Positions 1,111 to 28,385 of a stretch of 36,306 nt of DNA are shown one piece after another. Position 1 is the stretch's first letter. Each line of letters opens with the position of its first letter. The stretch is from Bacteroidales bacterium (GTDB lineage: Bacteria; Bacteroidota; Bacteroidia; Bacteroidales; UBA12077). The DNA lies in the NCBI GenBank assembly GCA_028282785.1, contig JANQHE010000007.1:1-36306 (forward strand), in the 5' to 3' direction. A program made the position numbers and the translations under genes. The notes under the pieces were generated by a model. It searched no databases, had not been told where the DNA came from, and saw only the letters and a list, made by a program, of their open reading frames with translations.

Positions 1111-2007
1111 TTAATTAATAGATTTTGAGATACTTATCAACAACGTCCTTACTTTAGTTATGTTTTCTCTAAATCCTAAATATGCATCTTCTGTAACTAT
1201 TATTTCTTTACCTCCCTGAATTACCAAAAAATCTTTATCTTTCTCTTTTGTAACTTTTATATCACTTTCCTTAAAATCCAAATGATCAAACATGTCCCTA
1301 ATTGCTGTCAACTCACTTAAAACTGTTTTAACATAAATGTCATCGGAATAATGTGATGCAAACTCATAATAATTATCGAAAACAAATTTTTGATCGAAAA
1401 TTTTTTGGATTACTTCTCCCGAATGATTAAAATCAATATTATTTATTGCCAGATAAAGTGCTTCAACAATCGCTCCGGTTGAAATTAAAACCAGAATATT
1501 ATTTCTGTCTGAATTCTCAAGTGTTCTGGACATTTTATAATATAGTTCCTGTGAAATTCTATCTAACGAATCCTTCACCATTAAGTTATTATTGATTCTA
1601 TCTAACATTTCTTCATCCACGATCCCATATAAATTCACTTTATCCATTAAATCACGAATTATTCTTAAATATTCTAATTCATCGGCACTATCATCAATTG
1701 CACTTAGGTAAGCAAAATCGGCTATGTAAATACCAAGGTTTACTGATTGTGATTTAATATCTACATAATTTGTTGCATTTGTTGATGGATTAACAAACTC
1801 AGGTTTTAGCTCAATATCTTCAATAAATATTTCATTAAAAATCTCATCAGGTGAGGGCAACATATAAACAACTTGTTCCTCATCACCAAAACCCTGAGTA
1901 TCTTTTATTTCGATTGGTTGTTCTTTCTCTTCTTTTTTATCAGATTTACATTGCACCAATGTAAACACCGCAAAGAAACTTAGAATAAAAAGTAATTTCA
2001 TTTTCAT
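1111..2007 (-). CDS. Lipoprotein of uncharacterised NLGIY-x-AD family (copy A)
   Basis: This 298-aa protein has an N-terminal signal whose hydrophobic stretch ends in LVQC followed by a charged, Lys/Glu-rich tail (KSDKKEEKEQ). That looks like a Bacteroidota lipoprotein signal, although Gln before the Cys is not a textbook lipobox residue. The rest is soluble and largely helical. It includes VYMLPSPDEI, a YVDIKSQSVNLGIYIADFAY motif and an ISTGAIVEALYLA segment. The plus-strand protein at 18151 is a clear paralogue along its whole length, with matching LPSP/LYPTP, NLGIY-x-AD-x-AY and GA-x-(V/I)-E segments. I recall similar unnamed lipoproteins in other Bacteroidota but know no function. It follows the ABC transporter gene by 30 bp in the same direction, so an envelope partner of that transporter is a reasonable guess and no more. 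Confidence 0.8.
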   Translation of the reverse strand: MKMKLLFILSFFAVFTLVQCKSDKKEEKEQPIEIKDTQGFGDEEQVVYMLPSPDEIFNEIFIEDIELKPEFVNPSTNATNYVDIKSQSVNLGIYIADFAYLSAIDDSADELEYLRIIRDLMDKVNLYGIVDEEMLDRINNNLMVKDSLDRISQELYYKMSRTLENSDRNNILVLISTGAIVEALYLAINNIDFNHSGEVIQKIFDQKFVFDNYYEFASHYSDDIYVKTVLSELTAIRDMFDHLDFKESDIKVTKEKDKDFLVIQGGKEIIVTEDAYLGFRENITKVRTLLISISKSIN

Positions 2008-2037: not shown

Positions 2038-5000
2038 TTAAAATTTTTTATAAAATAAAATGATTAAAAAGATACAAAAAATAAGTGTCATAAACCAAAG
2101 AACAACTATATTAAAGCTTATTGTATTTATGGTTAACGAACCTAATTTTTTCTCAGATGCAAAAAAATGAGACCTGCCAATCTTCGATCCTGGAACATGA
2201 TAAATTGGCTCAATTTTTCTAATTATCTTATTATTGTTTTTTATAAATGGTTTAAAAGTTTGCCTTTTTAAAACCAACTCGTTTATGCTTTTATTTGAAT
2301 TCCTATTCTTAAAGTTATTATAGTTCTGAATATCCCCCAGATGAGAAATTAAAGCATGTGTTATGCTATCTTTTTGGTAAGATATATTATTTACAATTTC
2401 TATTAATTCTGAATTTAATTGGCTTAGATAATCTTCAACAGAATTTAATATTTCGATTGATAAATCTTCAAATTTTAGTTTTTTAAGATCCGGAAAAGAT
2501 CCGGGATTAATCTTTCTCAGTTCGTAAATCAATAATTTGTAATGATCTTCTAACTCTTCAATATCACCATCTCTTAAACCATTTCTAAGTACATCTACTG
2601 CATCTTTTAGTTCAGGAATTAAGAATAAAACATAAAAACGTGCATAACTATCTCGTTTATCATATTTAAAATATTTTTTCTGATACTTATTTTTACCGAA
2701 TTGAGAGACCACAATTGCCTCATATGCCCAACGCGAAGCCATTATATCACCAACAAAAGGAACGTATTCATCGTTTATCACTTTGGAATTTAGTTTATCG
2801 TATTCAACCATGGTTCCGCTTAACAATATTTGAGGAACTATAAATAATGGTACCAATATATAGATTACAACAATCGAATTAAATAATGATGATATAAGCA
2901 ATCCAACAACATTAGCGAAACAAAATGTTGAGAACAGAATGATCCAATAATAGAATATCATTGCTTTAATACCAAGTATCAAGTTTCCTAATATTGCAAA
3001 TAGAAATGCCTGAATGGCACTTAAAATAAATAAGAAAAGAATTTTTGATTTTAGATAACTTATCTTATTTAATTTAAGGAAAGCTTCTCGTTTAAGTATT
3101 TTACGATCGCGATAAATATCTTCCGCACTAATAATTAAGCCAACAAATAATGCAACAATTACCGCCATAAAAAGATAGGCCGGTAGGTTCTCATTTCCAA
3201 ATAATACATAATGATCAAAATCTGAGCTTGTATGTTTGCACAATAATGAAAGAATTACTGCTAACAAAGGGGTTATTAGAAACGCCAATAAGACATACTG
3301 TTTATTCGCAAATTTCGATAGAAAATTACGTTCACTAAAGATTAAAAATTGTTTAAAGAAATTGGGTCTGTTAAATGTAATTTGCGGTATCTCTTTCTTT
3401 ATATCAACAGGTTCTTTAATTGATTTTACTTGCTCCAGATAATGCTGATGCCATTCCTCAGGCTTAACTTTTCGAAAACTTACAAATTCTCCCTTTTTGT
3501 TTACTTTTTTTTCTTCAAGGATCTTAAATATTGATTCAGGGTTTATATTTCCACAAGTTTGACAACTATCAGCTACGGTTACAAAGCTTTCTGCAAGCGT
3601 ATTAAAATGAGGGATTGACTCTACCGGATTACCAAAATAAACGGGATAACCTTCTTTATCAAGCATTAGGATTTTATCAAATGACTTAAACGTATCAGAT
3701 GAAGGTTGATGTATATTCATTGCTACAATCCGCCCCTTTATAGTTTGCTCGGTAAACAATTGCATAATCTCCTCGGAATCTGATGATGATAACCCGGACG
3801 TTGGTTCGTCGGCAAATAAAATATAAGGTTCACGAATTAATTCCAGGGCAATATTTAACCTTTTGCGCTGCCCTCCACTTATAAACTTATTCAACGGAGT
3901 ACCAACTCTTAGATCTCTTACATCATACAAGTCGAGATCTCTGAGCAATCGGATTACTTTTTCTTCTATCTGTTCGCTCGTTAGATCTCCAAAACAAAGC
4001 TTAGCATTTAAGTATAAATTTTTAAATACTGAAAGTTCCTCAACAAGAAGATCATCTTGAGGAATATACCCAATAAGCCCTTCGAGTTTGTTTTGATCTC
4101 TTTTTATATCAAAATTATTAATGGTAACCTGTCCCTTTTGCGGCAAAAGAGTTCCATTTAATAAACTTAATAAAGTAGATTTTCCAACACCACTTCGTCC
4201 TATTATACCAATCATCTGGCCTGATTTAATCGTTGCTTTCAAATCATGGATTCCGTTTTTACTATTCTTAAATCTGAAATCAATATCCTTTGCCTCAAAA
4301 AGCAATTGTACTGTTTCTTCAGACAGAAAATGCCTTAGAATCTGATTGTAATATATTGGTTCGATATGCTCTCCTTTGATTGACGCACCCTTGGGAAGTG
4401 TATAAATATTCTCAGGGAAGATAATTTGATTATTAAATTGTATATTCTCTTTACCCTTGTAGTAAAAGATAATAAGTTTTATGCTTCTAATTATCAGAAA
4501 GTAAAGCTGCCCTTTAAAACCGTCCTTCTCAAAAAAATTAATTTCAATACTAAAAGGTTTTTTTTCGCAAAGCAGTAATAAGTTTTCCTTCTCTTTTAGG
4601 TTATATAGTTTTTCTTCTACAAATGATTTACAGTTTTTATACTCATTATCATCAATATTCAATTCAGATGCTATTTCCTTTAGTAAGTCAGATAATCGAA
4701 TCAGGCTTTCGCTTTTGTGAAAAGGGTAACGTAAAAGGAATTTATTAAAAAGCAGTAATCTAATTAATATTACAAAACGTTCTCGTTGAGGTAATTTATC
4801 ATTAACCTCTCTGGTTAATCTTAATAATATATCTTTAAGCGGTTCCTTATTTTCTGATTTTACTTCCTTATATTTTAAATAATTCGACTCAAATTGGGAT
4901 ACAAAATCCTTTACAGCTTCTTTACCAAATTCTTTCTTTAAAATTGATGATATGAAATCCTTTACATTTGTGCTCGGCACGGAGGAATAAATGTTAGAAA

Positions 5001-5046
5001 TTATTGAAAACAAACGAATTATATACTCTATTAATATTTTATTCAT
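2038..5046 (-). CDS. ABCG-like ABC transporter with long extracytoplasmic loop
   Basis: This 1002-aa protein is a half-transporter in the order NBD then membrane domain, as in ABCG/White-type proteins. An N-terminal helical region of about 250 residues matches nothing I know. The ATPase has Walker A GRSGVGKST (residues 283-291), signature SGGQRKRLN (near 389) and Walker B ILFADEP (near 404-411). A CxxC pair (C495, C498) lies in the linker. Six hydrophobic segments follow, roughly between residues 570 and 745, with the last at 980-1000. Between the fifth and sixth lies a hydrophilic stretch of about 230 residues that should face the periplasm, far longer than the usual ABCG loop. The start overlaps the stop of the upstream pseudokinase gene by 8 bp, which implies translational coupling. 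The substrate is unknown. Export is likely from the architecture. Confidence 0.88.
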   Translation of the reverse strand: MNKILIEYIIRLFSIISNIYSSVPSTNVKDFISSILKKEFGKEAVKDFVSQFESNYLKYKEVKSENKEPLKDILLRLTREVNDKLPQRERFVILIRLLLFNKFLLRYPFHKSESLIRLSDLLKEIASELNIDDNEYKNCKSFVEEKLYNLKEKENLLLLCEKKPFSIEINFFEKDGFKGQLYFLIIRSIKLIIFYYKGKENIQFNNQIIFPENIYTLPKGASIKGEHIEPIYYNQILRHFLSEETVQLLFEAKDIDFRFKNSKNGIHDLKATIKSGQMIGIIGRSGVGKSTLLSLLNGTLLPQKGQVTINNFDIKRDQNKLEGLIGYIPQDDLLVEELSVFKNLYLNAKLCFGDLTSEQIEEKVIRLLRDLDLYDVRDLRVGTPLNKFISGGQRKRLNIALELIREPYILFADEPTSGLSSSDSEEIMQLFTEQTIKGRIVAMNIHQPSSDTFKSFDKILMLDKEGYPVYFGNPVESIPHFNTLAESFVTVADSCQTCGNINPESIFKILEEKKVNKKGEFVSFRKVKPEEWHQHYLEQVKSIKEPVDIKKEIPQITFNRPNFFKQFLIFSERNFLSKFANKQYVLLAFLITPLLAVILSLLCKHTSSDFDHYVLFGNENLPAYLFMAVIVALFVGLIISAEDIYRDRKILKREAFLKLNKISYLKSKILFLFILSAIQAFLFAILGNLILGIKAMIFYYWIILFSTFCFANVVGLLISSLFNSIVVIYILVPLFIVPQILLSGTMVEYDKLNSKVINDEYVPFVGDIMASRWAYEAIVVSQFGKNKYQKKYFKYDKRDSYARFYVLFLIPELKDAVDVLRNGLRDGDIEELEDHYKLLIYELRKINPGSFPDLKKLKFEDLSIEILNSVEDYLSQLNSELIEIVNNISYQKDSITHALISHLGDIQNYNNFKNRNSNKSINELVLKRQTFKPFIKNNNKIIRKIEPIYHVPGSKIGRSHFFASEKKLGSLTINTISFNIVVLWFMTLIFCIFLIILFYKKF

Positions 5047-6163
5047 TGTCTTCCACGGTTAATTTATCAGGATTAAAATAGAGTTCAATAAGCATTCCTG
5101 CATCCTTTGGGTTTTTTATCTCAATCTTTCCCGAGTGTTTTTCTACAATTTGATTAATTAAAAACAGGCTTAGACCGAAATTGTGTAAAAGATCTTGATC
5201 TGAAGCTCGAAATGGATTCATCAATAAATCTTCCGAATCTTCAATTTCTATATCGCCATGATCAAGAATTGAACATTTAATATATTCATCGACCTTCTCT
5301 AATTTTATGTCTATTGATGTTTTTGGATTTGTAAGAATAATGGCATTCTCAATTAAATATAAAAATGCTTTATGCATTAAATCACGATCTCCTTTTATGA
5401 CCAGGTTCGGATCTATATCTTCAACAATCTCAATTTGTTTGTCCATGATCTCATTGGTAAGTTCCAAATAACAATACTGAATTAGTTCTTTTGCATTGAG
5501 GTCCGATATATTTAGTTGATAACTCCCTGAACTTAACTGTGTTGAGAGAATCGTCTTATTTGCAAAATCATCTAAACGTTGAACTGAATTCTGTAATGTC
5601 TCCAAAAGTTCTTTAATTGTAGATGAAAATTCTTGGTTTCTTAGAAGATGTAAAGCTCCGGATATTCCTGTTAATGGAGTTCTGATTTCCTGGCTTATCA
5701 TATTAAGAAAATGAGTTTTCATATTATTTAAGCTTTCCACCTCTTTCTGCATTCGCTTTAATTTCTCATCATTCTCAATTTCTTTGATAATACGATTTAC
5801 AATAACATTGATTTGATTTAAAAAATCGCCGGTTTTAACAAGGTATTCCTTAGCACCTAATTTCATTATTTCAACAGCGATCCTTTCATCGCCAAAACCA
5901 GTCATGAAAATAAAAGGTATTTCTATGTTTTCTTCATTTAGGTTTTGTAATAATTCTTTCCCGGTAATATCAGCTAACTTATAATCCAGCAACATTAAAT
6001 ACACATCTTGTGTTTTAATAAAATCCAACGCTTCCGCTCCGGAAATAGCGGTAATAATGTTATACTTTTCTTCTTCGAGTTTTGATTTTATTAAATATTG
6101 TAGTCCTACATCATCTTCGACAACAAGTATGGTATATTTTGAATCCGGAGTATAATTTGCCAT
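5039..6163 (-). CDS. Receiver domain fused to degenerate histidine kinase (pseudokinase)
   Basis: This 374-aa protein begins with a complete receiver domain: acidic pair D17/D18, phosphoacceptor D60 in LLDYKLADITG, T88 and K110. A kinase-like region follows from about residue 125. Its H-box reads MISQEIRTPLTG, so the phosphorylatable His is replaced by Gln158 (codon CAG at 5690-5692). The ATP-binding half keeps an N-box-like LIENAI. The G1 box is DHGDIEI instead of D-x-G-x-G, and the G2 box is reduced to NFGLSLF. Autophosphorylation therefore looks lost. The receiver should still accept phosphate from a neighbouring kinase, and the kinase-like half probably acts as a dimeric output or scaffold (inference). 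It overlaps the ABC transporter start by 8 bp, the tightest link in the array, so the transporter is a plausible partner. No membrane segment or signal peptide is present. Confidence 0.88.
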   Translation of the reverse strand: MANYTPDSKYTILVVEDDVGLQYLIKSKLEEEKYNIITAISGAEALDFIKTQDVYLMLLDYKLADITGKELLQNLNEENIEIPFIFMTGFGDERIAVEIMKLGAKEYLVKTGDFLNQINVIVNRIIKEIENDEKLKRMQKEVESLNNMKTHFLNMISQEIRTPLTGISGALHLLRNQEFSSTIKELLETLQNSVQRLDDFANKTILSTQLSSGSYQLNISDLNAKELIQYCYLELTNEIMDKQIEIVEDIDPNLVIKGDRDLMHKAFLYLIENAIILTNPKTSIDIKLEKVDEYIKCSILDHGDIEIEDSEDLLMNPFRASDQDLLHNFGLSLFLINQIVEKHSGKIEIKNPKDAGMLIELYFNPDKLTVEDNE

Positions 6164-6215
6164 TTTATTAGTTTATTTATCTTTAAATGTACTAAACTTA
6201 TTTTAATTTATGAAC

Positions 6216-9071
6216 TTAAACTATTGGTTTTTCAAGGTTTATAAAAAATTTTGATCCTACTCCTTCTTCTGACCCCACAGATATCTTTCCATCCAATCGC
6301 TCAATTGTTTTTTTAATTAATGATAAACCCATTCCTTCTCCATTCTGATTATCAGGGTTAATACGGTAAAATACATCAAATATCTTATCCAATTCTGTTT
6401 CCGAAATTCCTATACCATTATCCTCAATACTATAAATTACTCTATGCCCCTCTTCCTTTCCTGTAATTTTTATACGAGCCTCTCTATCTGTTGATCGGTA
6501 TTTAATTGCATTATCGATTAAATTAGAGAATACTTGATTTATTTGAACTTCATCTGTATGACATGCCGGTAATTCATCAACTTCAATGTTAATATTCTCT
6601 TCGTGTATTTTATACTCAAAAGTACTTATCAACGAACTCATTAACTGATTCATATCTACATTAACTTTATTAATTGCTGCTCTTCCCAGCCGCGACAATT
6701 TTAATAATGCTAATAATAATTTGTCAATTTTTTGCCCACTGATCTTTATAAAACTTAATATATGAGGGATATCTTTTTCTAAGATAAACTTTATATCTTC
6801 CTGATTTTCAATTTTATTATTTTCATTAAATATTTTATCGGATAATTTATTTAAAGCTTTGATCATTTCGTCACTAAAGCCAAGTATATTAACAACCGGA
6901 GAACGAATATCATGAGATGTTACATAAACTACTTGCTCCAGTTCTTTATTTTTGGTAACTAATTCCGTATTTAGCTTATTTACCTTATCTTCAGCTTCTT
7001 TGCGACTAAAAGCATGCCCGATAATATCTGAAATTGTTCTAAGTAAAGATAGATCCTCAATTGTCCATTCATCCACTTCGTAAATATTGCTAATAACTAA
7101 TAAGCCTTTAAGTTTCAAGTTAGAATAAAAAGGTATCCCAAGAAAATTAAAAATGTTATATTTTTCAAAAGCCTCCTTCTCAATTTTAGCTTCTTCCGGT
7201 AATTTAGATACATCTTCAATAAAAATAAAATCCAGTGAATCCAGCATATTTAAACTATATTCAAAAAGTTTATAATCCATTTCTTCAAACTTAGGTAGCT
7301 CTTTTAATGGATTATTGTAATTTTTATTTAAAACAAGATTTAATTTATTGTTGTTTATAGTAAGAATGCTATAACGCTCGGCCTCAATAATATTATGTAA
7401 TTCCTTTAGTGAATCTTCCAGCTTTGATTCAAAATCGTCAGTTGATATGAATTGAGAAGAGATATTTATAATGGATTGCTCTATTATCAATTTCTTTTCG
7501 AGTCGTTTTGTTGAGTATTCCTCTGCTGTTTTATCAATTATTAATCCTAAGGTACCAACAATCTCTTCTTTATCATTCAACCAAGGTACCGAAAAAATTT
7601 CTATGATTCTCTTTTTTCCATCCTTTCTTTTAATACCTGCTTTATACTGTGAACTAATATTATTTTTTCGATTTTTCGTTTCCTGAAGAATTTTAGGGAT
7701 ATCTTCAGGTACTATAAAATCTTTTAAGTTTTTACCTAACATCTCTCCTTCATTATAACCAAATATATGATCGAATGAAGCATTTGAGAAAATAACCGTT
7801 TCATCAAAATCAATGATACTCAGCCCCTCATGCATATTTTCAACTAACGCTTTGTACTTTCTTTCGCTCATTTCAAGTTCTTGCGCTAATTTATCTTCTT
7901 GTTTAAGTTCCTGGCCCGAGCTTAACGCTCCTATTATGTTCCCGGCAGAATCTCGTATTTGCTTACTTTCCCATAATATAACTTTTTGTTTTTTTGTTGC
8001 AGTTAGAATATTTCCTTTAATCTTCTTATCAATAATTATTGAACCATCCATTATACCATTAAAAGTGTTTTTAACTTTTTTTATTTCATTTTCAGGTATA
8101 AATTTATCAAACCAGTTTGCCCCAAGTAGTTGATCCTTATTTAATTCCAGAATTTTACAGGCCTTTTTGTTTATACTGGTTATATTTCCATTTAAGTCTA
8201 AGGTAATATACATTTGATCTGATGTATCCAAGATAAAATCTGCAATTTCTTTTTCTTTTATTTTTTCTGCTTCAAACTTTCTCCGTTCAGAGACATCAAA
8301 CATGTGGCCTAATAATCCAACTACGTTTCCACTATCATCTCTTAAAGCTGTTTTATAAAATATCACATCCATTACATCGCCGTTAACATTAGCTACTTTA
8401 TATTCGTATTTCTGTGTAACAGGATTCTTGAAAAATGCCTCATCCATTTCATGATATTTCTTTGCTAACTTTTTAGGAGCAATATCAAAAACTGTTTTAC
8501 CAATAATTTCTTCTTTGGGTAATCCTATAAACTCTGCAAAAGCCTTATTACATCCAAAATACCTCCCTTCCTTTCCTTTATAGAAAATTGGATTTGAAGT
8601 CGATTCAATAAGTTGATTTAAAAAATGACCGTGTTCACTTTGTGTTTTTTGGCTACGTAGTAGTTCTTTTTTAGTAAAATCAAACTGCTCTATAACTTTG
8701 GTTTTCTCAAAATTCCTTATCAGACCCAAACATACCTGACTTATATTCGATTTTTCAACGATGTCGTTAATGCCAATTTTATTAATGTTTCGAATAAGAT
8801 TTTCACCAAACTTATCCGATGCTACCAAAATACTCAACTGAGGATTCCAATTAAAGAGTTGTTTAACTAAAGAATCTAATTTGTTCCTTACCAATTCATA
8901 ATCGAAAATAACTACATCCCAATATCGATTTTTCAAACTCAACATTTCAGCATTCAAATCCTTAATATTATTGCAATTCAGAACGTATCCCAATTTTTGT
9001 ACCTCTTCTGTGAGCTGCTTTATATCTTGATTTGAATAATTATAAAAAAGAGCATTAATTTTATCTTCCAT
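6216..9071 (-). CDS. Soluble multi-sensor histidine kinase (pseudo-receiver, 3 PAS, GAF)
   Basis: This 951-aa protein shows no membrane segment. In order: a receiver-like domain (about 1-130) that keeps D57 in VVIFDYEL but lacks the N-terminal acidic pair; three PAS domains at about 149-272, 277-395 and 403-520; a GAF domain at about 535-690; HisKA with H720 in VTSHDIRSP; and HATPase with N-box NLIDNAI, G1 EDNGIGI and G2 GEGMGLSL. The kinase core looks intact. The PAS/GAF array points to sensing of a cytoplasmic signal such as redox state, a small ligand or light, but no cofactor residue could be assigned. It lies 11 bp downstream of the 1002-aa hybrid kinase gene and 52 bp upstream of the pseudokinase gene, whose intact receiver is a candidate phosphate target. 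Confidence 0.9.
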   Translation of the reverse strand: MEDKINALFYNYSNQDIKQLTEEVQKLGYVLNCNNIKDLNAEMLSLKNRYWDVVIFDYELVRNKLDSLVKQLFNWNPQLSILVASDKFGENLIRNINKIGINDIVEKSNISQVCLGLIRNFEKTKVIEQFDFTKKELLRSQKTQSEHGHFLNQLIESTSNPIFYKGKEGRYFGCNKAFAEFIGLPKEEIIGKTVFDIAPKKLAKKYHEMDEAFFKNPVTQKYEYKVANVNGDVMDVIFYKTALRDDSGNVVGLLGHMFDVSERRKFEAEKIKEKEIADFILDTSDQMYITLDLNGNITSINKKACKILELNKDQLLGANWFDKFIPENEIKKVKNTFNGIMDGSIIIDKKIKGNILTATKKQKVILWESKQIRDSAGNIIGALSSGQELKQEDKLAQELEMSERKYKALVENMHEGLSIIDFDETVIFSNASFDHIFGYNEGEMLGKNLKDFIVPEDIPKILQETKNRKNNISSQYKAGIKRKDGKKRIIEIFSVPWLNDKEEIVGTLGLIIDKTAEEYSTKRLEKKLIIEQSIINISSQFISTDDFESKLEDSLKELHNIIEAERYSILTINNNKLNLVLNKNYNNPLKELPKFEEMDYKLFEYSLNMLDSLDFIFIEDVSKLPEEAKIEKEAFEKYNIFNFLGIPFYSNLKLKGLLVISNIYEVDEWTIEDLSLLRTISDIIGHAFSRKEAEDKVNKLNTELVTKNKELEQVVYVTSHDIRSPVVNILGFSDEMIKALNKLSDKIFNENNKIENQEDIKFILEKDIPHILSFIKISGQKIDKLLLALLKLSRLGRAAINKVNVDMNQLMSSLISTFEYKIHEENINIEVDELPACHTDEVQINQVFSNLIDNAIKYRSTDREARIKITGKEEGHRVIYSIEDNGIGISETELDKIFDVFYRINPDNQNGEGMGLSLIKKTIERLDGKISVGSEEGVGSKFFINLEKPIV

Positions 9072-9082
9072 TAAATTATTAT

Positions 9083-12000
9083 TTAAGGCAAACAGCTTAA
9101 TTCAGCATTCAATATATATGATTTTATAATACTTATCAACTTTTTATCATCTATTGGTTTAGGGATAAAATCATCACACCCTGATTTAGAAGCCTTGACT
9201 TTATCCTCTAGTGTTGTAAGAACCGATTGTGCAATTATCGGAACATTTTTATTCAGTTTCCTGATTTCTTTTGCCACCTCAAAACCGCTGATATCAGGCA
9301 ACTTTAAATCCATCAAAATTAAGTCAACGTTTTTGTGATCATTGTAAAGTTCTAATGCCAATTTCCCATTCTCAGCATGTATAATGTGATAAATCCCTAT
9401 TTCTTCGAGTAAGCCTTTAAGATACTCAAGGTTTAATAACTCATCTTCGACAATTAAAACCTTTGCTTTTTTCATAGCATTCTTTTGGTCTTTTTTAGTT
9501 AATTGAGTTGATATATTTCCTTTGGGAGCCTGTTTGTAAGGTAATGTAAAATAAAATTCGGATCCTTTCCCTTTTTCCGATTCTACCCAAATTTTTCCTC
9601 CCATTATCTCGACAAAAGCTTTTGAAATAGAAAGCCCCAGGCCTGTTCCACTATATTGATATGTTAAATCAATTTCTCCCTTATTAAATCTATCAAATAC
9701 CTCATGAATTCTATCTTTACTAATTCCTATTCCTGTATCACTAACCGTAATCGTAAATAAATCTTTTTTAAAACTACATTCAATACCAACTAATCCTTTT
9801 CCTGTAAACTTAATTCCATTATTTATAAGATTTGTAATGATTTGCTGAAGTTTAGTCTGATCTGCAAATATTAAATCTTTATTTTGAGGAATTTGGATAT
9901 TTTTAACTAAATCAAGTTTTTTTGATTCTGCAATTGGTGAAAAAGAGTTGTAAATGGTTTCTAACATCTCAGTTAAAGAAAATTCTCTATTATATAAATC
10001 CACATCACCGGTTTCAATTCTTGAAATATCAAGAATATCTCCAATAATTGATAAAAGTTGCTGACTACTATTGTTTATTACACTTACATATTTTTCTCTT
10101 TTATTTTGATCAAGGTCTTCCTTTAACAATAATTTGGCAAAACCTACAATTCCATTCATTGGAGTTCGAATTTCATGACTCATATTTGCCAAGAAAGACG
10201 ATTTTAGCTGATCGCTTCTTTCAGCTCTTTCTTTTTCTTTAATAAGTTCCTCTTCAAATCTTTTTAAATCACTGATATCCGATATAAATCCCTCGAGGTA
10301 TTTTACTTTTCCATCTTCAGTTTCAATTCCTATACCTTTTTCCCAAACCCATTTTTCTTTACCTTCTTTCGTAGTAATTTTATATTCGAGTTGGAACTGC
10401 CTTTTTTCTTTAATAGCTATTTGTATGTCTTCCCGTGTTTTTGATTTTGAGTCTGAGTGAACAATATCATTATAAGAAATCAATTTATTGTTGATTAAAT
10501 GTTCTGGTTCATAACCTGTTAATTCTTTACATCCATCACTAACAAATAACATTGTATAATTCTTATCATTATTACAACGATATGCTATTCCGGGCAAGTT
10601 ACTCATAAGAACTGATAACATTCTTTGCGATTCTTTTAAAGCTTTATCTGTTTTTATTCTCACAGAAATATCGCGAATTGCTGCAATATGTACTTTCTTA
10701 TTTTTCCACTCAAAAAATCGCCCCGTTATTTCAACAGGAAATACCTCTCCTTTTTTATTTTTATGGTAACGAAGCGGAATAAATGCCACATTTTCCTTAA
10801 TTACAGGTGATTTTAGTGTAAAATCTTTTGTTTTATCAGGTTCTGCCGATAAATCGGTATTTTTCTTTTTTAATAATTCATCAAGCGGATACCCATAAAG
10901 TTTTTCGGCTGCTCTATTTGCTTTTAGAATATTTCCCGTTTTATTTTCAATTAAAAATATAGCATCAGATTCCGACTCAAAGAGTTCTCTGTATAGTTCT
11001 TTGCTTTCTCTTATAGTATCTAGAGTACTCTTTAGCTCGGTTTTGTCAACAACAATCCCAAAAGATTTTATCGGATGTCCTTTTTTATCGTACTCAGTTT
11101 TAAATTTTTGTTTTATATACTTTATCTTCCTTTGAGGCGTATAAATTCTGTATTCCAATATTAATTCCTTTTTTTCTTCAACTGAATTTATATAGTTTTT
11201 TTGTATATTGCTTCTATCATCCGGATGAATAAGATGTAGAAAAAACTCAAAGTTTAATTCCTGAACTTTCTCTTTTTCAATTTCAAATAATTTATAAACC
11301 TCATCCGACCAGAAAAATCTGTTATTGATCATATCAAATTCCCAATGACCAATTTTTGTTATACTTTCAGCCTCTGTTAAAATTTCAACTTTATGCTCTA
11401 ATTCTTTCTCAACTTGTTTCAGTTTTGTTATATCCTTAAATACACAATATGTTTTTTCGACCTCACCCTCTGTATTATAACCAATACTTCCATTAAATTC
11501 AACACCGATGTAAGTTCTATTTTTTCTTGTTAATCTGTAGTATACATTTTTTTGAGATCCGGTATGTAAAAACCTCTCATAGTTAATATTAAACTGGTTT
11601 TTATCATCATTGTGCAATAAATCCTTAAAAGAGGTTCCAATCACCTCTGATTTTTTATAACCAAGCGTATCGGACCAGGCCGGATTTACATCCACAATAA
11701 CACCTTCTTTGTTTAAAGATTGCATACACAGTGGTGAATAATCATAAAATGACTGAAATATTTCACTCTTTTTAATTAGTTCTTTTTCTAAAAGCTTATT
11801 TTCAGTAATATCCTTAATTATAATCAAGGTGTGTGGTTTACTCTCCCAATTTATTTTTTGAAAAGAAAACTCAAGGTTTCTTTCAGAATTGCCTTCGAAA
11901 ATTGTTACCTCGTTATATCCATGACTTAAAACCGGATATTCAAATTCCGAGTTCAGAAGAGATCCCATATCCTTATCTAATATTCCAACTGCCGAAAAAT

Positions 12001-12091
12001 TAGCATAATGAATAATTTTCTCCTGATTTATAATCACGATTCCATCTTGTAATTTGTCAAGTATTATATTTGAAAGATCTTTTATAGACAT
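9083..12091 (-). CDS. Hybrid histidine kinase with five PAS domains and C-terminal receiver
   Basis: This 1002-aa protein is soluble by inspection, with no signal peptide or hydrophobic segment. Five PAS domains occupy about 5-100, 105-225, 237-345, 350-470 and 480-600, several followed by PAC-like ends such as CVFKDIT and AAIRDIS. HisKA has H639 in MSHEIRTPMNG. HATPase has NLINNGIKF, SDTGIGIS and SGTGLGLSI. The C-terminal receiver has D928 in LMDLKLPD, Ser in the usual Thr switch position (IIAQSVL) and PKP. All catalytic motifs are present, so it should autophosphorylate and pass phosphate to its own receiver. The third PAS (IGHWEFD... WSDEVYKLF) closely resembles the second PAS of the kinase at 15932, suggesting shared domain ancestry. 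It starts 24 bp after the 1104-aa hybrid kinase gene ends. Confidence 0.92.
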   Translation of the reverse strand: MSIKDLSNIILDKLQDGIVIINQEKIIHYANFSAVGILDKDMGSLLNSEFEYPVLSHGYNEVTIFEGNSERNLEFSFQKINWESKPHTLIIIKDITENKLLEKELIKKSEIFQSFYDYSPLCMQSLNKEGVIVDVNPAWSDTLGYKKSEVIGTSFKDLLHNDDKNQFNINYERFLHTGSQKNVYYRLTRKNRTYIGVEFNGSIGYNTEGEVEKTYCVFKDITKLKQVEKELEHKVEILTEAESITKIGHWEFDMINNRFFWSDEVYKLFEIEKEKVQELNFEFFLHLIHPDDRSNIQKNYINSVEEKKELILEYRIYTPQRKIKYIKQKFKTEYDKKGHPIKSFGIVVDKTELKSTLDTIRESKELYRELFESESDAIFLIENKTGNILKANRAAEKLYGYPLDELLKKKNTDLSAEPDKTKDFTLKSPVIKENVAFIPLRYHKNKKGEVFPVEITGRFFEWKNKKVHIAAIRDISVRIKTDKALKESQRMLSVLMSNLPGIAYRCNNDKNYTMLFVSDGCKELTGYEPEHLINNKLISYNDIVHSDSKSKTREDIQIAIKEKRQFQLEYKITTKEGKEKWVWEKGIGIETEDGKVKYLEGFISDISDLKRFEEELIKEKERAERSDQLKSSFLANMSHEIRTPMNGIVGFAKLLLKEDLDQNKREKYVSVINNSSQQLLSIIGDILDISRIETGDVDLYNREFSLTEMLETIYNSFSPIAESKKLDLVKNIQIPQNKDLIFADQTKLQQIITNLINNGIKFTGKGLVGIECSFKKDLFTITVSDTGIGISKDRIHEVFDRFNKGEIDLTYQYSGTGLGLSISKAFVEIMGGKIWVESEKGKGSEFYFTLPYKQAPKGNISTQLTKKDQKNAMKKAKVLIVEDELLNLEYLKGLLEEIGIYHIIHAENGKLALELYNDHKNVDLILMDLKLPDISGFEVAKEIRKLNKNVPIIAQSVLTTLEDKVKASKSGCDDFIPKPIDDKKLISIIKSYILNAELSCLP

Positions 12092-12115
12092 TTATTAAGA
12101 TAAAGTAGATTCAGT

Positions 12116-15100
12116 TTAATCGTTTAAGGAAATATACTTTTCAATTAGATTTAACAAACTGTCATAATCAATTGGTTTCGCAATATAATCATCGCAACCT
12201 GCCTCTAATGCTTTTTCGCGGTCGCCCGGAATTGCCAGTGCTGTCTGTGCAATAATCGGTATATTTGAGTTCATTGATTTAATCTTACGAGTTGCCTCAA
12301 ATCCATTCATAATTGGCATTTTTAAATCCATCATTATTAAACCAATATCATCCTGATCATTCATCATTTCAACTGCTTCCTTTCCATTGTAGGCTCTTAC
12401 AATATTCTCAACGCCTAAACCATTAAAAACCCGTTTAATATATTGATAATTAATTTCTTCATCTTCCGCTACCAAAACTTTTGCATTACTAAAACTTATT
12501 ATTGGTTTCTGAATGTCTTCTATAGGTATAATCTTCTCTTTTTTAGTTTTTTGATAAGGTAATTCAAAATAAAAAGTAGAACCTTTATTTTTCTCTGACT
12601 CAACCCAAATCTCTCCACCCATTAATTGTATATATCCTTTCGCTATTGCCAAACCTAAACCTGTTCCACCATAGGTTCTGGACATATCAACTTCTGCTTG
12701 CCTGAACCTTTCAAATATTTTGTCTTTTAATTCAGGTTCTATACCAATTCCAGTATCTTTAACAAAGAATTTTATATGTTCGTTATTATCATTTATTCCA
12801 ATTTCTATTTTGCCTTCATGTGTAAATTTTATGGAATTATTTAATAAGTTTTTTAGGATTTGTATCACTTTTATTTTATCAGAATACAATTTTCTCTTTT
12901 TTAAAGTTTTACAATAAAAGCTCAGTTCAATTCCGTTTTGTTTACAAATTTCTTTATGCTCCAAGAAAATATTGTTCGTTATTTCTTCGGGATCAAAATC
13001 TTCGTTCATTACTTCTATCTGTTGAGTTTCCAATTTAGAAATCTCGAGTATATCTTCTATAATTTTTAGTAATTGTTGACAACTTTCATTTACAATATTT
13101 ACATAGCGTATCCTGTTTTCATGAGATAATTCCGGATCCCTTAGAAATTGGGAAAATCCAATAATACCATTCATAGGTGTACGCACTTCGTGCGACATAT
13201 TCAATAAGAATGACGATTTAAGCTGGTCACTTTCCTCTGCTTTTTCCTTGGCTTCTTTTAATTCTTTAATATTTCGAGAGTTAAATAATGCTAAAGAAGC
13301 TAACTCTCCAAAAGCACTAACAATTCTTGCATCCGCTTTCGTAAAATTAGTAAGTTTATTTGCAATTCCGATTACACCAACAGTTTGATTTTTAATAATT
13401 AACGGGGCAATTAATACATTTTTCAGAATAACATCATCTTTAGGCAAATACTTAACCCATTCGGAATTACTAAAATCATTATTATAAACAACTTCCTTTT
13501 TTAGATAAGCTAACTCCTTTAGTCCGTGAACTAACGTAGGCAAATCGGGATCAACATTACTATGATCTCCTCCATCATCTATAAAAAGTACATTATATTC
13601 GTTACTCGATTCTGACAACAAGGCAACATATCCTGCTTTAGCTCCTGTAAGTTTTTTACAAGAATCAAAAAGGATTTTAGCAATTTTTTCAAATGAACTA
13701 AGTTCCAGGATTTTTTTAGCGCCATCCAACAATTCAGATATCTCAGTATTTTTGATCTGCATTTCGATTAATAAATCTTTAATCTTTCTTTCTGATTCTT
13801 CGGCTTGATCCTTAGCAACTAATAGTTCTTTTTCCTTATCAATTCTATCTGATATATCTTCTTTTATAGCTACATAATGTGTTATTTTATTTTCATAATT
13901 AGTTATTGGCGATATTTTGGCCTCTTCATAATATATCTCGCCCGATTTCTTTTTATTAATAAAAATTCCTTTCCATGTTTCACCCTTACCAATAGTTTGC
14001 CATAAATCGAGGTATGTTTTTGCTGTTGTTTTTCCAGATTTTAGGATTTTTGGATTTTTCCCTAAAACTTCGTCTTTCGTATACCCGGTAACTTCCGTAA
14101 ACCTATTGTTAACATACTTTATATTTCCATCTACATTGGTTATAATTACTCCGGCAGGGCTTTGCTCTACAGATAAAGAAAGTTGATGTATTATTTCTTC
14201 ACTTTTACTTTTCTGAATTGCAAGTGTAATTTGTTTGGCAATAAACTTAACCAACTCTAAGTCTTCATTGTTAAAAGCCGAATCATTCTCAAAATCTTTA
14301 AGAATTAAAACTCCATGTTTTTCGTTATTACTATATATTGAGGCTCCTAACCATGATTTTGGAACTTTTCCGTTAAACTTTTTATTCTCTTCTTTTATAA
14401 GTTTATTTAACTCTTCTCCAGTGTAATACTTTGCATCTTGATTTTCCAGCAATAAATCACATATGCTCTCATTTAATGGGAATCTGTGAATTTGAATCTC
14501 TTCATTCTTAACACTAATGAAATCAAGTTGGTTTTCCTTTGTTATTGCAAGGCAGATATCTTTATCGTTGAAAATTTTATGTACTTCTTTATAAATAATT
14601 TTGAAAAAATCTTTTTCATTCTCAACCACATTTATTGAAGATGTAATTGTGTTAACAAAATTCTTTACAGTTTCATTTCTCCAGTTACTTGTTATATCTG
14701 TTGTAGAGATATATTTTACAATTTTACCTTCATTCGTTTTTTTAACAGTTGTTCTATTTCTTAAATAACAACGCCTGCCATCTTTTCTTTGAATCCACAA
14801 AGATTCATCACCATAGAAATTACCAGAATCGCTTAACTGATTAAAAAAACTTGTTAGATTAGTTTCAATATCAGTTTCTCCGGTATATATTAGCATAAGT
14901 TCTTCAAGCGAATAACCCGTTATTTCGGTCATTCTGTTATTTACGTATACAATTTTCTTATTCTCAATAATAGTTAATCCATCCTGTATATTCTCTGCTA
15001 TACTTTTAAACCTGTCCGTACTTTCCAATAATTGATTTGATAATTTTTTTCTATTGAATGAGTACCTAATCGTTTGGAACATTTTTTCCACATCATATTC

Positions 15101-15430
15101 ACCCTTAACAATATAATCCTGTGCTCCTAATTTTATTGAATTTAAAGCCACTTGTTCATCACCTAAACCACTTAATACAATAATTGGCAGATGACTAAAG
15201 TTCTCTGCTAATTTTATAAATGTTTCGATACCTTTGCTATCCGGTAATCCGAGATCAGTTATAACTAATTCAAAAACTTCACTTTTTAAGGTGCTAATTG
15301 CATCTTTCAAAGTTTTTTTTATTACAATATCAAATTTGTAATTTTTAACTTCGCTTATTATTTCTTTAAATAAAAAAGCATCACCTTCATCATCTTCAAG
15401 GAGTAAAATTCTATATATTTCTTTGTCCAT
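12116..15430 (-). CDS. Hybrid histidine kinase with receivers at both ends (REC-PAS-GAF-PAS-GAF-HK-REC)
   Basis: This 1104-aa protein has no membrane segment. An N-terminal receiver (about 5-125) carries D13/D14, D59 in VITDLGLPD and VKG. PAS 1 spans about 140-250, GAF 1 about 255-415, PAS 2 about 420-545 ([24 protein letters not shown]-like in shape but without the flavin-binding NCRFL motif) and GAF 2 about 570-720. HisKA has H747 in [12 protein letters not shown]. HATPase has [16 protein letters not shown] and GGTGLGLAI. The C-terminal receiver has D1035 in [11 protein letters not shown] and AKP. Both receivers look competent, so this protein can take input from another kinase (N-terminal receiver) and hand phosphate on (C-terminal receiver). 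It lies 65 bp downstream of the single-domain regulator gene. Confidence 0.92.
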
Positions 15431-15495
15431 AACTAAATTAATTAGATTTAAATCATATATTTAGTTTGCTCCGGGTTGGGTTTAGTTAATAAATC

Positions 15496-15939
15496 TCAAG
15501 GTTTAGGTGGATATTTAACAACAGTCAACCAAAAATTATCTACTGCTTGCACAACTTTCTGAAACTGCTCTAAACCTACCGGTTTTGTAACATAACAGCT
15601 TGCCCCGAGTTTATAAGATTTTATAATATCCTCATCTGCTTTTGATGTTGTGAGTACAACAACCGGAATCATTTTGAAATCATCGTCCTTTTTTATTTCA
15701 TCCAAAAATTCTTTTCCATTCATTTTAGGCATATTTAAATCAAGCAATATCAGATCCGGTCTTATGGCTTCGGTGTATCCATTTTCTTTTCGCATATACG
15801 ATAATGCTTCCGCACCATTGTTTACTACATTAATATTTATTTTCACTTTTGACAATTCCATTACTTCTTTAGTGATCTCTACATCCTGAGGATCGTCTTC
15901 GATTAACAGGACCTGGATAAATTTTAAATCGTTAGTCAT
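15496..15939 (-). CDS. Single-domain response regulator, Rcp1-like
   Basis: This 147-aa protein is a stand-alone receiver of the type found next to phytochrome-like kinases (Rcp1 family). It has LLIEDDPQDVEIT with D15/D16, phosphoacceptor D67 in LLDLNMPKMNGKEFL, the VLTTSKADEDI switch region (T97) and K119 in TKPVGLEQF. No output domain is attached, so it works as a phosphate shuttle or by protein contact. Its start overlaps the stop of the histidine kinase gene upstream by 8 bp, as usual for a cognate pair. It is the only small freely diffusing receiver in the array and could link the first kinase to the larger hybrid proteins (inference). Confidence 0.93.
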   Translation of the reverse strand: MTNDLKFIQVLLIEDDPQDVEITKEVMELSKVKININVVNNGAEALSYMRKENGYTEAIRPDLILLDLNMPKMNGKEFLDEIKKDDDFKMIPVVVLTTSKADEDIIKSYKLGASCYVTKPVGLEQFQKVVQAVDNFWLTVVKYPPKP

Positions 15940-17638
15940 AATTTTTTAATTTTTTAGGTATTGTAAAATAGAATGTTGATCCCCCTTGCCTGCCAGCAGG
16001 CAGGTTTCTTAATTCTGATTCTATCCAAATTGTTCCCTTGTGTCGTTCAATAATTTTCTTGCAAATTGCAAGGCCAATTCCTGTTCCGGCATATTCCTCT
16101 TTTGTATGCAAGCGTTGGAACACCTCGAAAATCTTTTCTTTATACTTCATGTCCATACCTATTCCATTATCACTGATCGAAAATTCCCAGTTATTATTGT
16201 TTTCTTCAACACTAATTTTTATAACAGGAGGTATATCCGATTTGAACTTGATAGAATTACCAATTAAATTTTGAAATACCTGGATCATTTGGGATTCATC
16301 TACCTTTAATAACGGTAATTCATCAATTACTAACTGAGCTTGATATTCTTCAATACTTAGTTGTAAATTTTCAACTACCTTTTTAACTGTCTCGTTTAAA
16401 TCTGTAGGAACAAATTCCTTACCCCTTGTAGAAACCCTTGAAAGGCTTAACAGATCAAGCACAAGAGTTTGCATTCTATCGGCTCCGGTTGTGATATAAT
16501 TGATATATTGATTAGCCTTTTCATCAACTACACCGGAATATTTTTTTGCAAATAATTCGGTAAAATTTTTCACTTTCCTTAATGGTTCCTGTAAGTCGTG
16601 AGAAGCAACATATGCAAATTGTTCCAGCTCTTTATTAGAGCGCTCAAGTTCATTAACGGTATTTTCCAGTTTTATTTGTGCGGTTTTTCTTCCCGTAATA
16701 TCTTGTACCGTACCAATAGAACGTAAAGGTTTCCCATCATTATCAAACGATGTATTACATTTTTCCAGAACATATTTAATTTTTTCACCTTTTAACAATA
16801 ACTTATGCTCAATTTGATACGATGTTTTGTTTTTAAGAGAGTCCGAATAGGCTTTGTTTACCATTTCCCTGTCATCCGGATGAATTGATTCGAGAAAAGC
16901 TTCATAAGTAGCCTTGAATTGTTGTGGTTCCAAATCGAAAATCCTGTAAATTTCATCGGACCAATCTAATTTATTATTTACAATATCTAATTCCCAATGT
17001 CCAAGTTGTGCTATTTTCTGAGCTTCTTTTAGTATTCTTTCTTTTTTTCTGAGATCTTCGTTCAAATCAGCCAATTCTTCATTGTTAGCTCGCAATTCTT
17101 CTTCTACTGCTCCCAATTCTTCTATTTTTTCTTTTAGTTCTTCATTTTGAACTGTATACTCCTCATTTAAAGCTTCATATTCTTCATTTTTTTGTTTTAA
17201 TTTTAATTCAGTTTTTTTCCATTCAGTAATATCGGTTACAATTCCTTCTATGGCAACAGGCTTTCCATTATCATCTTTTATAAGAACATTACGCTGATTT
17301 AACCATCTTTCTTCACCAGATTTATGTATAATTTTATATTCATACCTTACCGGCATTTTATCGTTTAAAAGATTTCTCCATTCTTGCTGAAAATACTCTT
17401 TAAAATCAGGATGAATAGATTCTCGTATAAGTGTTGGCGAATTATAGAAAACTTCCGGTTCATATCCGAAAATCTGTTTGGAGGCAGGGCTAACATATTC
17501 ATAAATACCTTCGGGAAGTGACATCCGGTAAATCATATCTGTGGCATTTTCCAGCAAACGAATGTACCTTTTATGCTTTACTTCAAGGTCCTCGTTATTT
17601 TTAATCAACTCTTCACGAGATTTGCTTTTGTCGATCAT
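15932..17638 (-). CDS. Soluble PAS-PAS histidine kinase (phytochrome-type HisKA, no chromophore domain)
   Basis: This 568-aa protein has PAS 1 at about 22-140, a Glu/Leu-rich coiled coil at about 140-200 (EELRANNEELADLNEDL) and PAS 2 at about 205-325. HisKA has H347 in ASHDLQEPLRKV, the variant typical of bacteriophytochrome-like kinases. HATPase has QNLIGNSIKF, SDNGIGMD and AGTGIGLAI. No GAF/PHY phytochrome module or membrane segment is present. Near the C-terminus the expected ESE-x-GKGSTF reads ESELRNLPAGRQGGSTF. The inserted LPAGRQG is encoded by a GC-rich palindromic repeat at about 15981-16010. It lies in a surface turn and may be tolerated. This is the first gene of the minus-strand array and is coupled to the response regulator gene by an 8-bp overlap. 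Confidence 0.92.
   Translation of the reverse strand: MIDKSKSREELIKNNEDLEVKHKRYIRLLENATDMIYRMSLPEGIYEYVSPASKQIFGYEPEVFYNSPTLIRESIHPDFKEYFQQEWRNLLNDKMPVRYEYKIIHKSGEERWLNQRNVLIKDDNGKPVAIEGIVTDITEWKKTELKLKQKNEEYEALNEEYTVQNEELKEKIEELGAVEEELRANNEELADLNEDLRKKERILKEAQKIAQLGHWELDIVNNKLDWSDEIYRIFDLEPQQFKATYEAFLESIHPDDREMVNKAYSDSLKNKTSYQIEHKLLLKGEKIKYVLEKCNTSFDNDGKPLRSIGTVQDITGRKTAQIKLENTVNELERSNKELEQFAYVASHDLQEPLRKVKNFTELFAKKYSGVVDEKANQYINYITTGADRMQTLVLDLLSLSRVSTRGKEFVPTDLNETVKKVVENLQLSIEEYQAQLVIDELPLLKVDESQMIQVFQNLIGNSIKFKSDIPPVIKISVEENNNNWEFSISDNGIGMDMKYKEKIFEVFQRLHTKEEYAGTGIGLAICKKIIERHKGTIWIESELRNLPAGRQGGSTFYFTIPKKLKNYD
15981..16010 (-). repeat. GC-rich palindromic repeat inserted in frame (encodes LPAGRQG)
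   Basis: A short GC-rich island in an AT-rich gene. Seven-base arms TGCCTGC (15987-15993) and GCAGGCA (15996-16002) flank a CA centre. Read on the minus strand it encodes LPAGRQG within the HATPase C-terminal turn of the kinase. I recall the same PAGRQ peptide and its palindromic DNA scattered through Bacteroidota proteins as a small dispersed repeat. The palindrome is seen directly; membership of that repeat family is from memory. Confidence 0.7.
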
Positions 17639-18150: not shown

Positions 18151-18981
18151 ATGAATTATAAGCTCCTAATTTCCATCCTCTGCTTTTTGTTCTTACACCA
18201 AGTCTCTATCTCACAAACAAGTGCCGAGGTCTATTTCCTATATCCTACACCAGGTGAACTGATTGCGGTAATAGATGAAGGTCAGTTATCTTTTGATAAC
18301 AAACTGATGAATCCAACTGAAAATCTTTCAAAGTATATAGATACTAAATCGAGAAATTTAAATCTTGGGATTTATATGGCAGACATGGCGTATGCCGCGT
18401 TTTTTTCGAGAAGGACCAAAGTTTTAAATTACTTAGAAGTTATTGGTCAGTTAAGTAATTATCTTTTAATATCATCTCAGATAAAAGAAAACCTGGTAAA
18501 TGATTTTACCGAGAACATTGATAATTTCGACTCAATTTATCACTTTACCAATGTATATTACTACGATATAATGAATGAACTGGAAGCCAATAATAATCAA
18601 AATGCGATGACGTTGATTATTGCAGGCGCCTATATTGAATGTATTTATATTGCTGTAAATCTTGCCGGTGATTATGAGGAAAATAGTGCTTTAATTCAAA
18701 AAGTGGCAGAGCAAAAATATGCTTTTAATAATTTAGTTAAATCATGTGATTTACATAAAAACAACCGAAATCTTGCAGCGATATTGGTTTATCTCAAAGA
18801 TATACAAGCTATTTATGACATGGTAAGGTTAACTGAAGGAACCAAACGGGAAATAATTCGAACTCCGGATGGAAAAATACGATTTAAAGGAGGGCCAACC
18901 CTTAAAATGGAGAAGGAAGAATTTTACAAGTTGAAAGAGACGATTTCAAGGATAAGAACTGAAATAGTAAATAATAGTTAA
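18151..18981 (+). CDS. Secreted protein of NLGIY-x-AD family (copy B)
   Basis: This 276-aa protein is a paralogue of the lipoprotein encoded at 1111-2007 on the other side of the kinase array. Shared landmarks are VYFLYPTPGEL near the mature start, YIDTKSRNLNLGIYMADMAYA, an IIAGAYIECIYIA segment and a helical C-terminal half ending in a RIRTEI-type helix. The signal sequence (MNYKLLISILCFLFLHQVSISQ) has no lipobox Cys at its cleavage point, so this copy is probably soluble in the periplasm or secreted, whereas copy A is probably lipid-anchored. It is the first gene of a three-gene plus-strand operon, with only 2 bp to the next start. Its function is unknown. The repeated pairing with a small C-x8-C protein argues that the two kinds of protein act together. 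Confidence 0.8.
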   Translation: MNYKLLISILCFLFLHQVSISQTSAEVYFLYPTPGELIAVIDEGQLSFDNKLMNPTENLSKYIDTKSRNLNLGIYMADMAYAAFFSRRTKVLNYLEVIGQLSNYLLISSQIKENLVNDFTENIDNFDSIYHFTNVYYYDIMNELEANNNQNAMTLIIAGAYIECIYIAVNLAGDYEENSALIQKVAEQKYAFNNLVKSCDLHKNNRNLAAILVYLKDIQAIYDMVRLTEGTKREIIRTPDGKIRFKGGPTLKMEKEEFYKLKETISRIRTEIVNNS

Positions 18982-18983
18982 AT

Positions 18984-19469: not shown

Positions 19470-19485
19470 TAAAAAAAATATACAA

Positions 19486-21918: not shown

Positions 21919-21969
21919 AATTAATTTCTTTTAACCTCAAGTTTAAGAATTCGGAGTATTTAATTCTTA

Positions 21970-23100: not shown

Positions 23101-23116
23101 TTCAAAAACCTTATTT

Positions 23117-23145: not shown

Positions 23146-23162
23146 AAAACAAATCTTTCTTA

Positions 23163-28378: not shown

Positions 28379-28385
28379 CACTTAA

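Follow-up and report, generated by a model that had tools for sequence, protein, structure and literature searches.

A receiver-pseudokinase paired with an ABCG-type transporter in Bacteroidota: a candidate post-translational switch

The output of a two-component system is usually taken to be a transcription factor. Bce modules link a transporter with a histidine kinase system, and their kinases are membrane-bound, lack input domains and drive a DNA-binding regulator. Other described systems act at the protein level. The FHA-ABC transporter Rv1747 of Mycobacterium tuberculosis is reported to be bound by a phosphoprotein at its FHA I domain (PMC5549992) and to share an operon with pknF, which encodes a kinase (PMC3908365). 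SiaC is described as a protein that is phosphorylated by SiaB, with structures available for SiaC and the SiaA phosphatase domain (PMC7647112), and that binds and activates the diguanylate cyclase SiaD; the authors propose that such proteins modulate adjacent proteins (PMC8457831). EpsW of Myxococcus xanthus, a single-domain response regulator without a DNA-binding domain, is reported to control the membrane enzyme EpsZ directly (PMC12802240). In this sense neither FHA-ABC transporters nor membrane enzymes under the direct control of a response regulator are new. Here we describe a locus of a Bacteroidales bacterium (lineage UBA12077, assembly GCA_028282785.1, contig JANQHE010000007.1) in which soluble histidine kinases, a receiver fused to a dead kinase domain (RRpK) and an ABC transporter (ABC) are encoded in one codirectional run. 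The window, i.e. the whole stretch of DNA analysed, is one entire contig of 36,306 bases from a 5.5-Mb genome of 81 contigs with 31.6% G+C.

The RRpK gene (5039..6163, minus strand) overlaps the ABC gene (2038..5046, minus strand) by 8 bp. The transporter is of the ABCG type, with the ATPase (PF00005, residues 267-417) N-terminal to the ABC2 membrane domain (PF01061, residues 566-783), and its predicted cytoplasmic head consists of a TerB-like region (3-143) and an FHA-like beta domain (156-232). In plan it resembles Rv1747, whose partner is Rv2623 and which is an ABC transporter with FHA regulatory domains adjoining a signalling gene. Rv1747 has a Ser/Thr kinase, PknF, and phosphothreonine-binding FHA domains, whereas the Bacteroidota transporter combines a TerB-like with a single FHA-like domain, is accompanied by a lipoprotein and stands beside receiver or SiaC switches; the kinases of the window array are all histidine kinases, so a cognate Ser/Thr kinase of the Rv1747 kind is missing. 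Genes for three elements of the SiaABCD switch of Pseudomonas aeruginosa directly adjoin sister transporter genes: SiaC, a SpoIIE-type phosphatase and a SiaB-type protein (DUF6272). Their known target is SiaD, whereas at the sister loci the adjacent gene encodes an ABC transporter, and in the window RRpK stands in the place of SiaC. Unlike a Bce module, the window array consists of soluble PAS/GAF kinases with no DNA-binding domain detected. The EpsW case differs in its target, since EpsZ is a phosphoglycosyl transferase and not an ABC transporter, and EpsW lacks a pseudokinase fusion. Within the terms chosen, a search of the open-licence literature found no description of a TerB-like/FHA-like ABC transporter with a lipoprotein and alternative switches that include a pseudokinase receiver.

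RRpK is a histidine pseudokinase. Its receiver is complete (E16/D17, D60, T88, K110), and Pfam recognises HisKA (48 bits) and HATPase (37 bits) in the window copy. The H-box reads SQEIRTP, with Q158 in place of the phosphoacceptor His, whereas in the other four array kinases the motif still begins with SHD or SHE. This agrees with the first-pass annotation, a model's reading of the sequence alone, which had called the last signalling protein a receiver plus pseudokinase translationally coupled to the transporter. The same combination recurs in all 16 distinct loci: the kinase His is replaced throughout (by N in 8, Q in 6, T in 1 and K in 1), and the receiver Asp, Lys and acidic pair (scored at the second acidic residue) are kept in 16/16. 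Because the phosphoacceptor is replaced in every case, autophosphorylation of RRpK appears to be lost. The Glu after the lost His is retained in 15/16, and the ATP-site residues are largely present (N-box Asn in 13/16, G1 Asp in 15/16, second Gly box in 11/16).

The gene pair is conserved to the same extent. Seventeen receiver genes of 330-420 amino acids were found directly upstream of an ABC gene, two of which (L079 and L051) lie on the same contig, leaving 16 loci. The smallest clade of the ABC tree holding all of them has a support of 0.964 and 19 leaves: these 16, two stretches that end upstream of ABC (L052, L170) and an apparent duplicate (L172). RRpK thus lies directly upstream of ABC in 16 of the 16 distinct testable loci of this clade. 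No RRpK-like gene was found directly upstream of the other ABC genes scanned or at 18 further loci, and a family-wide search returned only loci already in the set. The sister of the RRpK clade has stand-alone receivers (L039, L059, L063), and the node joining the two has a support of 0.998.

What lies upstream of RRpK varies. A kinase of the HK951 type (HK951, 6216..9071, minus strand: three PAS domains, H-box SHDIRSP and HATPase, without an intact receiver) directly precedes RRpK in the five most similar loci (the window and L044-L047), and a different REC-HK-REC protein of 790-807 amino acids takes this position in L048-L051. The remaining seven of the 16 loci lack a codirectional kinase at this position: a 761-amino-acid gene occupies it in L053 and L080 (by eye a TonB-dependent receptor in L053), and a divergent gene in L054, L083, L085, L088 and L122. 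In 11/16 RRpK loci no relative of the array kinases could be recognised, so we rejected the kinase array as the conserved unit. That unit is ABC-Lip-Sec, a Bacteroidota family in which a lipoprotein and a small secreted protein accompany the transporter. Because the upstream kinases differ among RRpK loci, they appear to be interchangeable inputs to a constant RRpK-ABC pair. The first-pass annotation had proposed to look across genomes for co-occurrence of the pseudokinase-ABC pair with these kinases, and had named their separation as refuting; the pair held, and the kinases did not.

At sister loci other switches stand beside ABC. The fullest set by Pfam is at L042, with SiaC (PF09345), a SiaB-type protein (DUF6272, PF19788), a SpoIIE phosphatase (PF07228) and CheB. 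This locus belongs to the window's own genome, and its stretch 10278-15930 carries, besides CheB, two CheR-like genes by eye. L040 has SiaC and DUF6272, and L041, L060 and L064 have SiaC of 167-170 amino acids (all by Pfam). Purpose-built profile hidden Markov models (HMMs) place SiaC, a SiaB-type protein and a PP2C/SpoIIE phosphatase together at L163, L165 and L167; Pfam finds PF09345 in the corresponding genomes and PF07228 at L163. In three genomes (G107, G204, G244) the single SiaC found is separated from an ABC gene by no more than ~110 bp, and both belong to a run of codirectional genes in the order SpoIIE-SiaB-SiaC-ABC-Lip-Sec. The SiaC neighbours are spread over several parts of the ABC tree, and 40/40 aligned matches have T or S at the presumed phospho-site. 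The window's own genome, G016 and G007 have five ABC copies each, of which one neighbours RRpK, one a stand-alone receiver and three SiaC, so that all 15 have such a neighbour; the own genome has 18 SiaC matches altogether.

To quantify these associations, the neighbours of 117 distinct ABC copies were scored with the HMMs, copies with an identical internal segment being counted once. Open reading frames (ORFs) were called mechanically (at least 70 amino acids, longest first). Fractions refer to the 85 loci where two ORFs flank ABC on either side, and the background consists of 242 genes more than five ORFs from ABC in the same loci, duplicate records included. Lip was found within two genes of ABC at 57/85 loci (background 5/242), Sec at 40/85 (11/242), SiaC at 23/85 (12/242) and a receiver at 24/85 (25/242). 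SiaC or a receiver was present at 46/85 against 37/242 (Fisher p 2e-11). The RRpK clade, which also holds the query, accounts for 14 of the 85 loci; without them the figure is 32/71 (p 5e-7), and when five loci with DNA-binding regulators are no longer counted as positive it is 27/71 (p 8e-5), one of those five (L144) also having SiaC. Because the genomes share ancestry, all these p-values overstate independence.

ABC and SiaC also co-occur at the level of genomes. ABC homologs are present in 38 of 59 relatives, often in several copies, and the same 38 have SiaC while the other 21 have neither, with no discordant case; 25 of the 38 are in the window's own family. A phylum-wide sample gave 7 genomes with both, 10 with SiaC only and 279 with neither (286/296 concordant), and in two of the seven (G333, G341) the ABC match covers only residues 250-795 and lies in longer proteins. 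In an order-level sample 93 genomes have both, 7 ABC only, 10 SiaC only and 137 neither (230/247 concordant); this sample overlaps the relatives, and shared ancestry inflates the co-occurrence. Few candidates were scored per genome (for ABC 14 in relatives, two in the phylum and three in the order sample), so some copies were perhaps missed.

Loci encoding the same transporter are from Bacteroidota in 80/80 cases, taking the best 80 of at least 579 confirmed places; Labilibaculum, Marinifilum and Breznakibacter are among the carriers. The best NCBIfam model for ABC is TIGR00955, at 233 bits against a cut-off of 736. Hydropathy gives six membrane-like peaks at 585-742, two of them overlapping, and a last one at 980-998, which leaves ~240 residues between the last two segments. 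Twelve aligned ABCs are similar over their full length, including the N-terminal 250 residues. For this head AlphaFold2 (75 sequences) predicts helices to residue 143 and a beta domain to 232, with a mean predicted local distance difference test (pLDDT) of 91.5. Among the top 20 Foldseek matches 13 titles name FHA and 5 further matches are to CEP170, taken here as its FHA domain; the best E value is 0.065, and because none is below 0.001 the beta domain at 156-232 is called only FHA-like. TerB is above the Pfam cut-off at the N-terminus of two distant ABCs of G333 (39.4 and 34.1 against 24.4 bits). The distant ABCs of G333 and G341 (L159-L162) are proteins of 1201-1309 amino acids with a longer N-terminal region, and no SiaC lies in the stretches examined.

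Two proteins encoded after ABC complete the set. Lip298 (1111..2007, minus strand; gap of 30 bp), whose relatives are the commonest neighbours of the ABC family, is a predicted helical lipoprotein. Its Cys20 is kept in at least 90% of 41 aligned sequences, and its predicted structure (pLDDT 85.7) is largely helical and has a beta hairpin at the C-terminus. It has no fold match in PDB (best E 0.85) and no Pfam family above cut-off. Sec156 (592..1062, minus strand; gap of 48 bp), 3' of Lip298, is small with an N-terminal hydrophobic, signal-like segment and matches no Pfam family. A low-threshold Pfam scan of Lip, Sec and the ends of ABC gave weak unrelated matches only. Because a lipoprotein and a secreted protein are present, the machine may well extend beyond the inner membrane. 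The name exporter is putative, as is transport activity, and the sequence points to no particular substrate.

Since the RRpK-ABC pair is conserved, the receiver intact and the His lost, and since other phospho-switches stand beside the wider ABC family, the evidence favours post-translational control. Drawing on the parallels with SiaC-SiaD and Rv1747, direct control of ABC by RRpK is the favoured form of it. The window locus is one of five paralogous copies, in its own genome, of a putative Bacteroidota transport machine: an ABCG-type transporter whose cytoplasmic head is TerB-like and FHA-like, together with a lipoprotein and usually also a small secreted protein. RRpK would be the control input of the window copy. 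Soluble PAS/GAF kinases, most likely the neighbouring HK951 with the others as further inputs, would set the phosphorylation of its receiver. The dead kinase domain would be a protein-interaction output that docks on the head or the ATPase of ABC and there allows or blocks the ATP cycle. At the sister copies, SiaC, switched by a SiaB kinase and a SpoIIE-type phosphatase, or a stand-alone receiver would do the same job. We infer from this pattern the physical contact, the direction of control, the transport activity and substrate, and the cognate kinase, and we put the chance that the full explanation is right at a little better than even (about 0.52). The first-pass annotation had likewise proposed that the pseudokinase gates the transporter post-translationally; the 16/16 pairing, the lost His and the kept receiver now lend this comparative support, and contact and direction are still read from the pattern.

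Several observations weigh against this explanation. The contact between RRpK and ABC is deduced from gene context and conservation. Most ATP-site residues of RRpK are kept, so it may be more than a scaffold, and nucleotide binding or phosphatase action is conceivable. The window ABC protein has no Pfam match to TerB or FHA. A hold-out of 20 new regions contained two members of the RRpK clade, L170, where the stretch ends upstream, and L172, an apparent duplicate of L080 (both contigs are 21114 bases long), and so no independent case of RRpK. SiaC or a receiver is lacking within two genes at 39/85 ABC loci. Of the 100 order-sample genomes with ABC, seven lack SiaC, and SiaC occurs without ABC in 10 genomes each of the phylum and order samples. 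In two of the ABC genomes without SiaC (G413, G520) the ABC examined has Lip and no SiaC or receiver gene nearby; at L183, in G413, a kinase-core gene lies three genes upstream. Five of the 24 receiver loci have DNA-binding regulators by Pfam, LytTR at L093, L096, L105 and L119 and Trans_reg_C at L144. A LytTR-kinase pair occurs at L164, and L168 looks alike; a second ABC of G107 has a LytTR regulator and a kinase nearby.

The remaining receiver loci are the 14 of RRpK, three with stand-alone receivers, one with a receiver-SpoIIE protein (L072) and one with a hybrid kinase (L073). The idea that all ABC-adjacent receivers are switches without DNA binding was rejected on account of the five regulators. 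In Marinifilum caeruleilacunae, Labilibaculum filiforme and Ancylomarina sp. (L093, L096, L119) the LytTR response regulator gene stands just before Lip-ABC, and these copies may for that reason be under transcriptional control. Such loci fit the view that the window holds an ordinary signalling cluster, a lineage-specific build-up of kinases beside a transporter with shared expression and no coupling between proteins. The genome is rich in receivers (132 above cut-off), and the kinase content of the locus differs between species, as this view would have it. It does not account for the RRpK-ABC order in 16/16 loci with a conserved loss of His, for the different phospho-switches at sister loci or for the strong co-occurrence of ABC with SiaC, and we regard it as unlikely.

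The array itself consists of seven codirectional minus-strand ORFs of 568, 147, 1104, 1002, 951, 374 and 1002 amino acids. Along the direction of transcription, from HK568 to ABC, they are spaced by -8, 65, 24, 11, 52 and -8 bp, exactly as the first-pass annotation had it (gaps of at most 65 bp and two 8-bp overlaps). That annotation ended the run at the transporter and so left out Lip298 and Sec156. HK568 (15932..17638) is a soluble histidine kinase with two PAS domains, HisKA (H-box SHDLQEP) and HATPase. It appears to be a lineage-specific input, with a relative among the orthologous loci only in L044 (a 900-amino-acid ORF, open at the edge of the stretch). RR147 (15496..15939) is a stand-alone receiver that overlaps HK568 by 8 bp. 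HK1104 (12116..15430) is a receiver-PAS-GAF-PAS-GAF-HisKA-HATPase-receiver hybrid kinase, and HK1002 (9083..12091) a multi-PAS-HisKA-HATPase-receiver hybrid kinase. Instead of about 10 PAS, 3 GAF and 6 receiver-like domains, Pfam gives ~11-12 PAS (a reading of overlapping stretches), 2 GAF and 5 receivers above cut-off (RR147, RRpK, HK1002 and two in HK1104); a possible sixth at the N-terminus of HK951 is seen by eye only and lacks the usual acidic pair. NCBIfam gave only generic kinase and ABC matches far below their cut-offs.

No helix-turn-helix or other DNA-binding family was found in the seven array proteins (Pfam, E≤0.001), as had been noted earlier. Neither was an Hpt family at the same threshold, the rest of the genome not having been searched for Hpt; the array thus lacks the Hpt step between receivers that marks a classical hybrid phosphorelay. 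The relay once proposed, from HK568 through an Rcp1-like regulator to the double-receiver hybrid and on to others, is unsupported, as no Hpt was found here and the kinases appear exchangeable. In a simple hydropathy scan the absence of membrane segments from the signalling proteins was upheld for five of the six; HK1104 has one borderline hydrophobic stretch (672-690, 1.70 against a threshold of 1.6) within a GAF domain. A DNA-binding regulator just outside the array had been named as a finding that would speak against the proposal. In G016, the genome of the ortholog L044, a LytTR regulator gene lies two genes past Sec on the opposite strand; none was seen at the equivalent place in L045-L047, and the window contig ends before it.

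Kinases without convincing membrane segments of their own would suit a reversed flow of signal, in which an ABC-lipoprotein complex senses conditions outside the inner membrane, or its own transport load, and RRpK passes this on to the kinases in a Bce-like manner. The ~240-residue stretch between the last two membrane-like segments and the lipoprotein partner would also serve for sensing. Yet the array kinases are rich in PAS and GAF input domains, which Bce-type kinases lack, a codirectional kinase directly upstream is missing from seven RRpK-ABC pairs, and the array holds no DNA-binding output to report to; we consider such a flow quite improbable. About as improbably, RRpK could act on the kinase network as a phosphatase or phosphate sink with ABC merely co-transcribed, for which the Glu kept in 15/16 and the ATP-site residues would speak (in HisKA proteins the H-box Glu and the Thr/Asn after it are important to both kinase and phosphatase activity), but the pair persists without an adjacent array kinase and the sister ABC clade has stand-alone receivers. 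Direct control of ABC by RRpK is the reading that we retain.

At the other end of the array, across a gap of ~510 bp, lie three divergent plus-strand genes (18151-19956). Lip276 (18151..18981) is a relative of Lip298, with 24% identity in alignment, and a Lip gene stands at the equivalent place in L045, L046 and L047. Sec161 (18984-19469), 3' of Lip276, and Sec156b (19486-19956), after Sec161, are relatives of Sec156 by eye, and their equivalents adjoin Lip in L045 and L046. A further gene of 251-278 amino acids, secreted by eye, follows Sec in L044 (17345-18142) and at equivalent places in L045-L048, L050 and L051. The L044 gene matches no Pfam family, and the window contig ends before the equivalent place. 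Within HK568, at 15987-16004, there is an in-frame palindrome-like repeat of 18 bases near the end of HATPase, in a stretch read as NLPAGRQGG. The pattern, with at most one mismatch, has 9 matches per genome strand, mostly both strands of one site, and a reversed control has 0; it may be a small mobile palindrome. Farther along the window, 20270-23528 holds a type II secretion F-like gene (PF00482) and a pair of small genes whose N-termini look hydrophobic and pilin-like by eye, with an ATPase_2 gene (21970-23124) between them. Two very long genes of 1369 amino acids (CARDB, weak RHS repeat) and 1236 amino acids (DUF6443) occupy 23634-32096, and three adjacent genes at 32189-36128 have in common a near-identical C-terminal stretch (ADFVFEDDYNLM..GISVGEMNAKLLQKIEELTL).

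Here a transporter is paired with a conserved dead kinase whose receiver is intact, and its sisters with another kind of protein switch, so that such pumps are perhaps switched directly and not through gene expression alone. On a broader and more tentative reading, to which we give less than even odds, Bacteroidota have a class of TerB-like/FHA-like ABCG transporters with a lipoprotein and a secreted protein, whose head would be a docking platform for exchangeable phospho-switches (SiaC, stand-alone receivers or a receiver-dead kinase). A genome would have several such pumps, each with its own switch, and a main effector of SiaC in the phylum would be a transporter and not a diguanylate cyclase. 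If pumps are indeed tied to such switches, this would provide a testable target for SiaC-type proteins outside Pseudomonas and a reason for the several paralogous ABC-lipoprotein sets in one genome. It would also be an experiment of nature, with a single regulatory head taking inputs of different chemistry.

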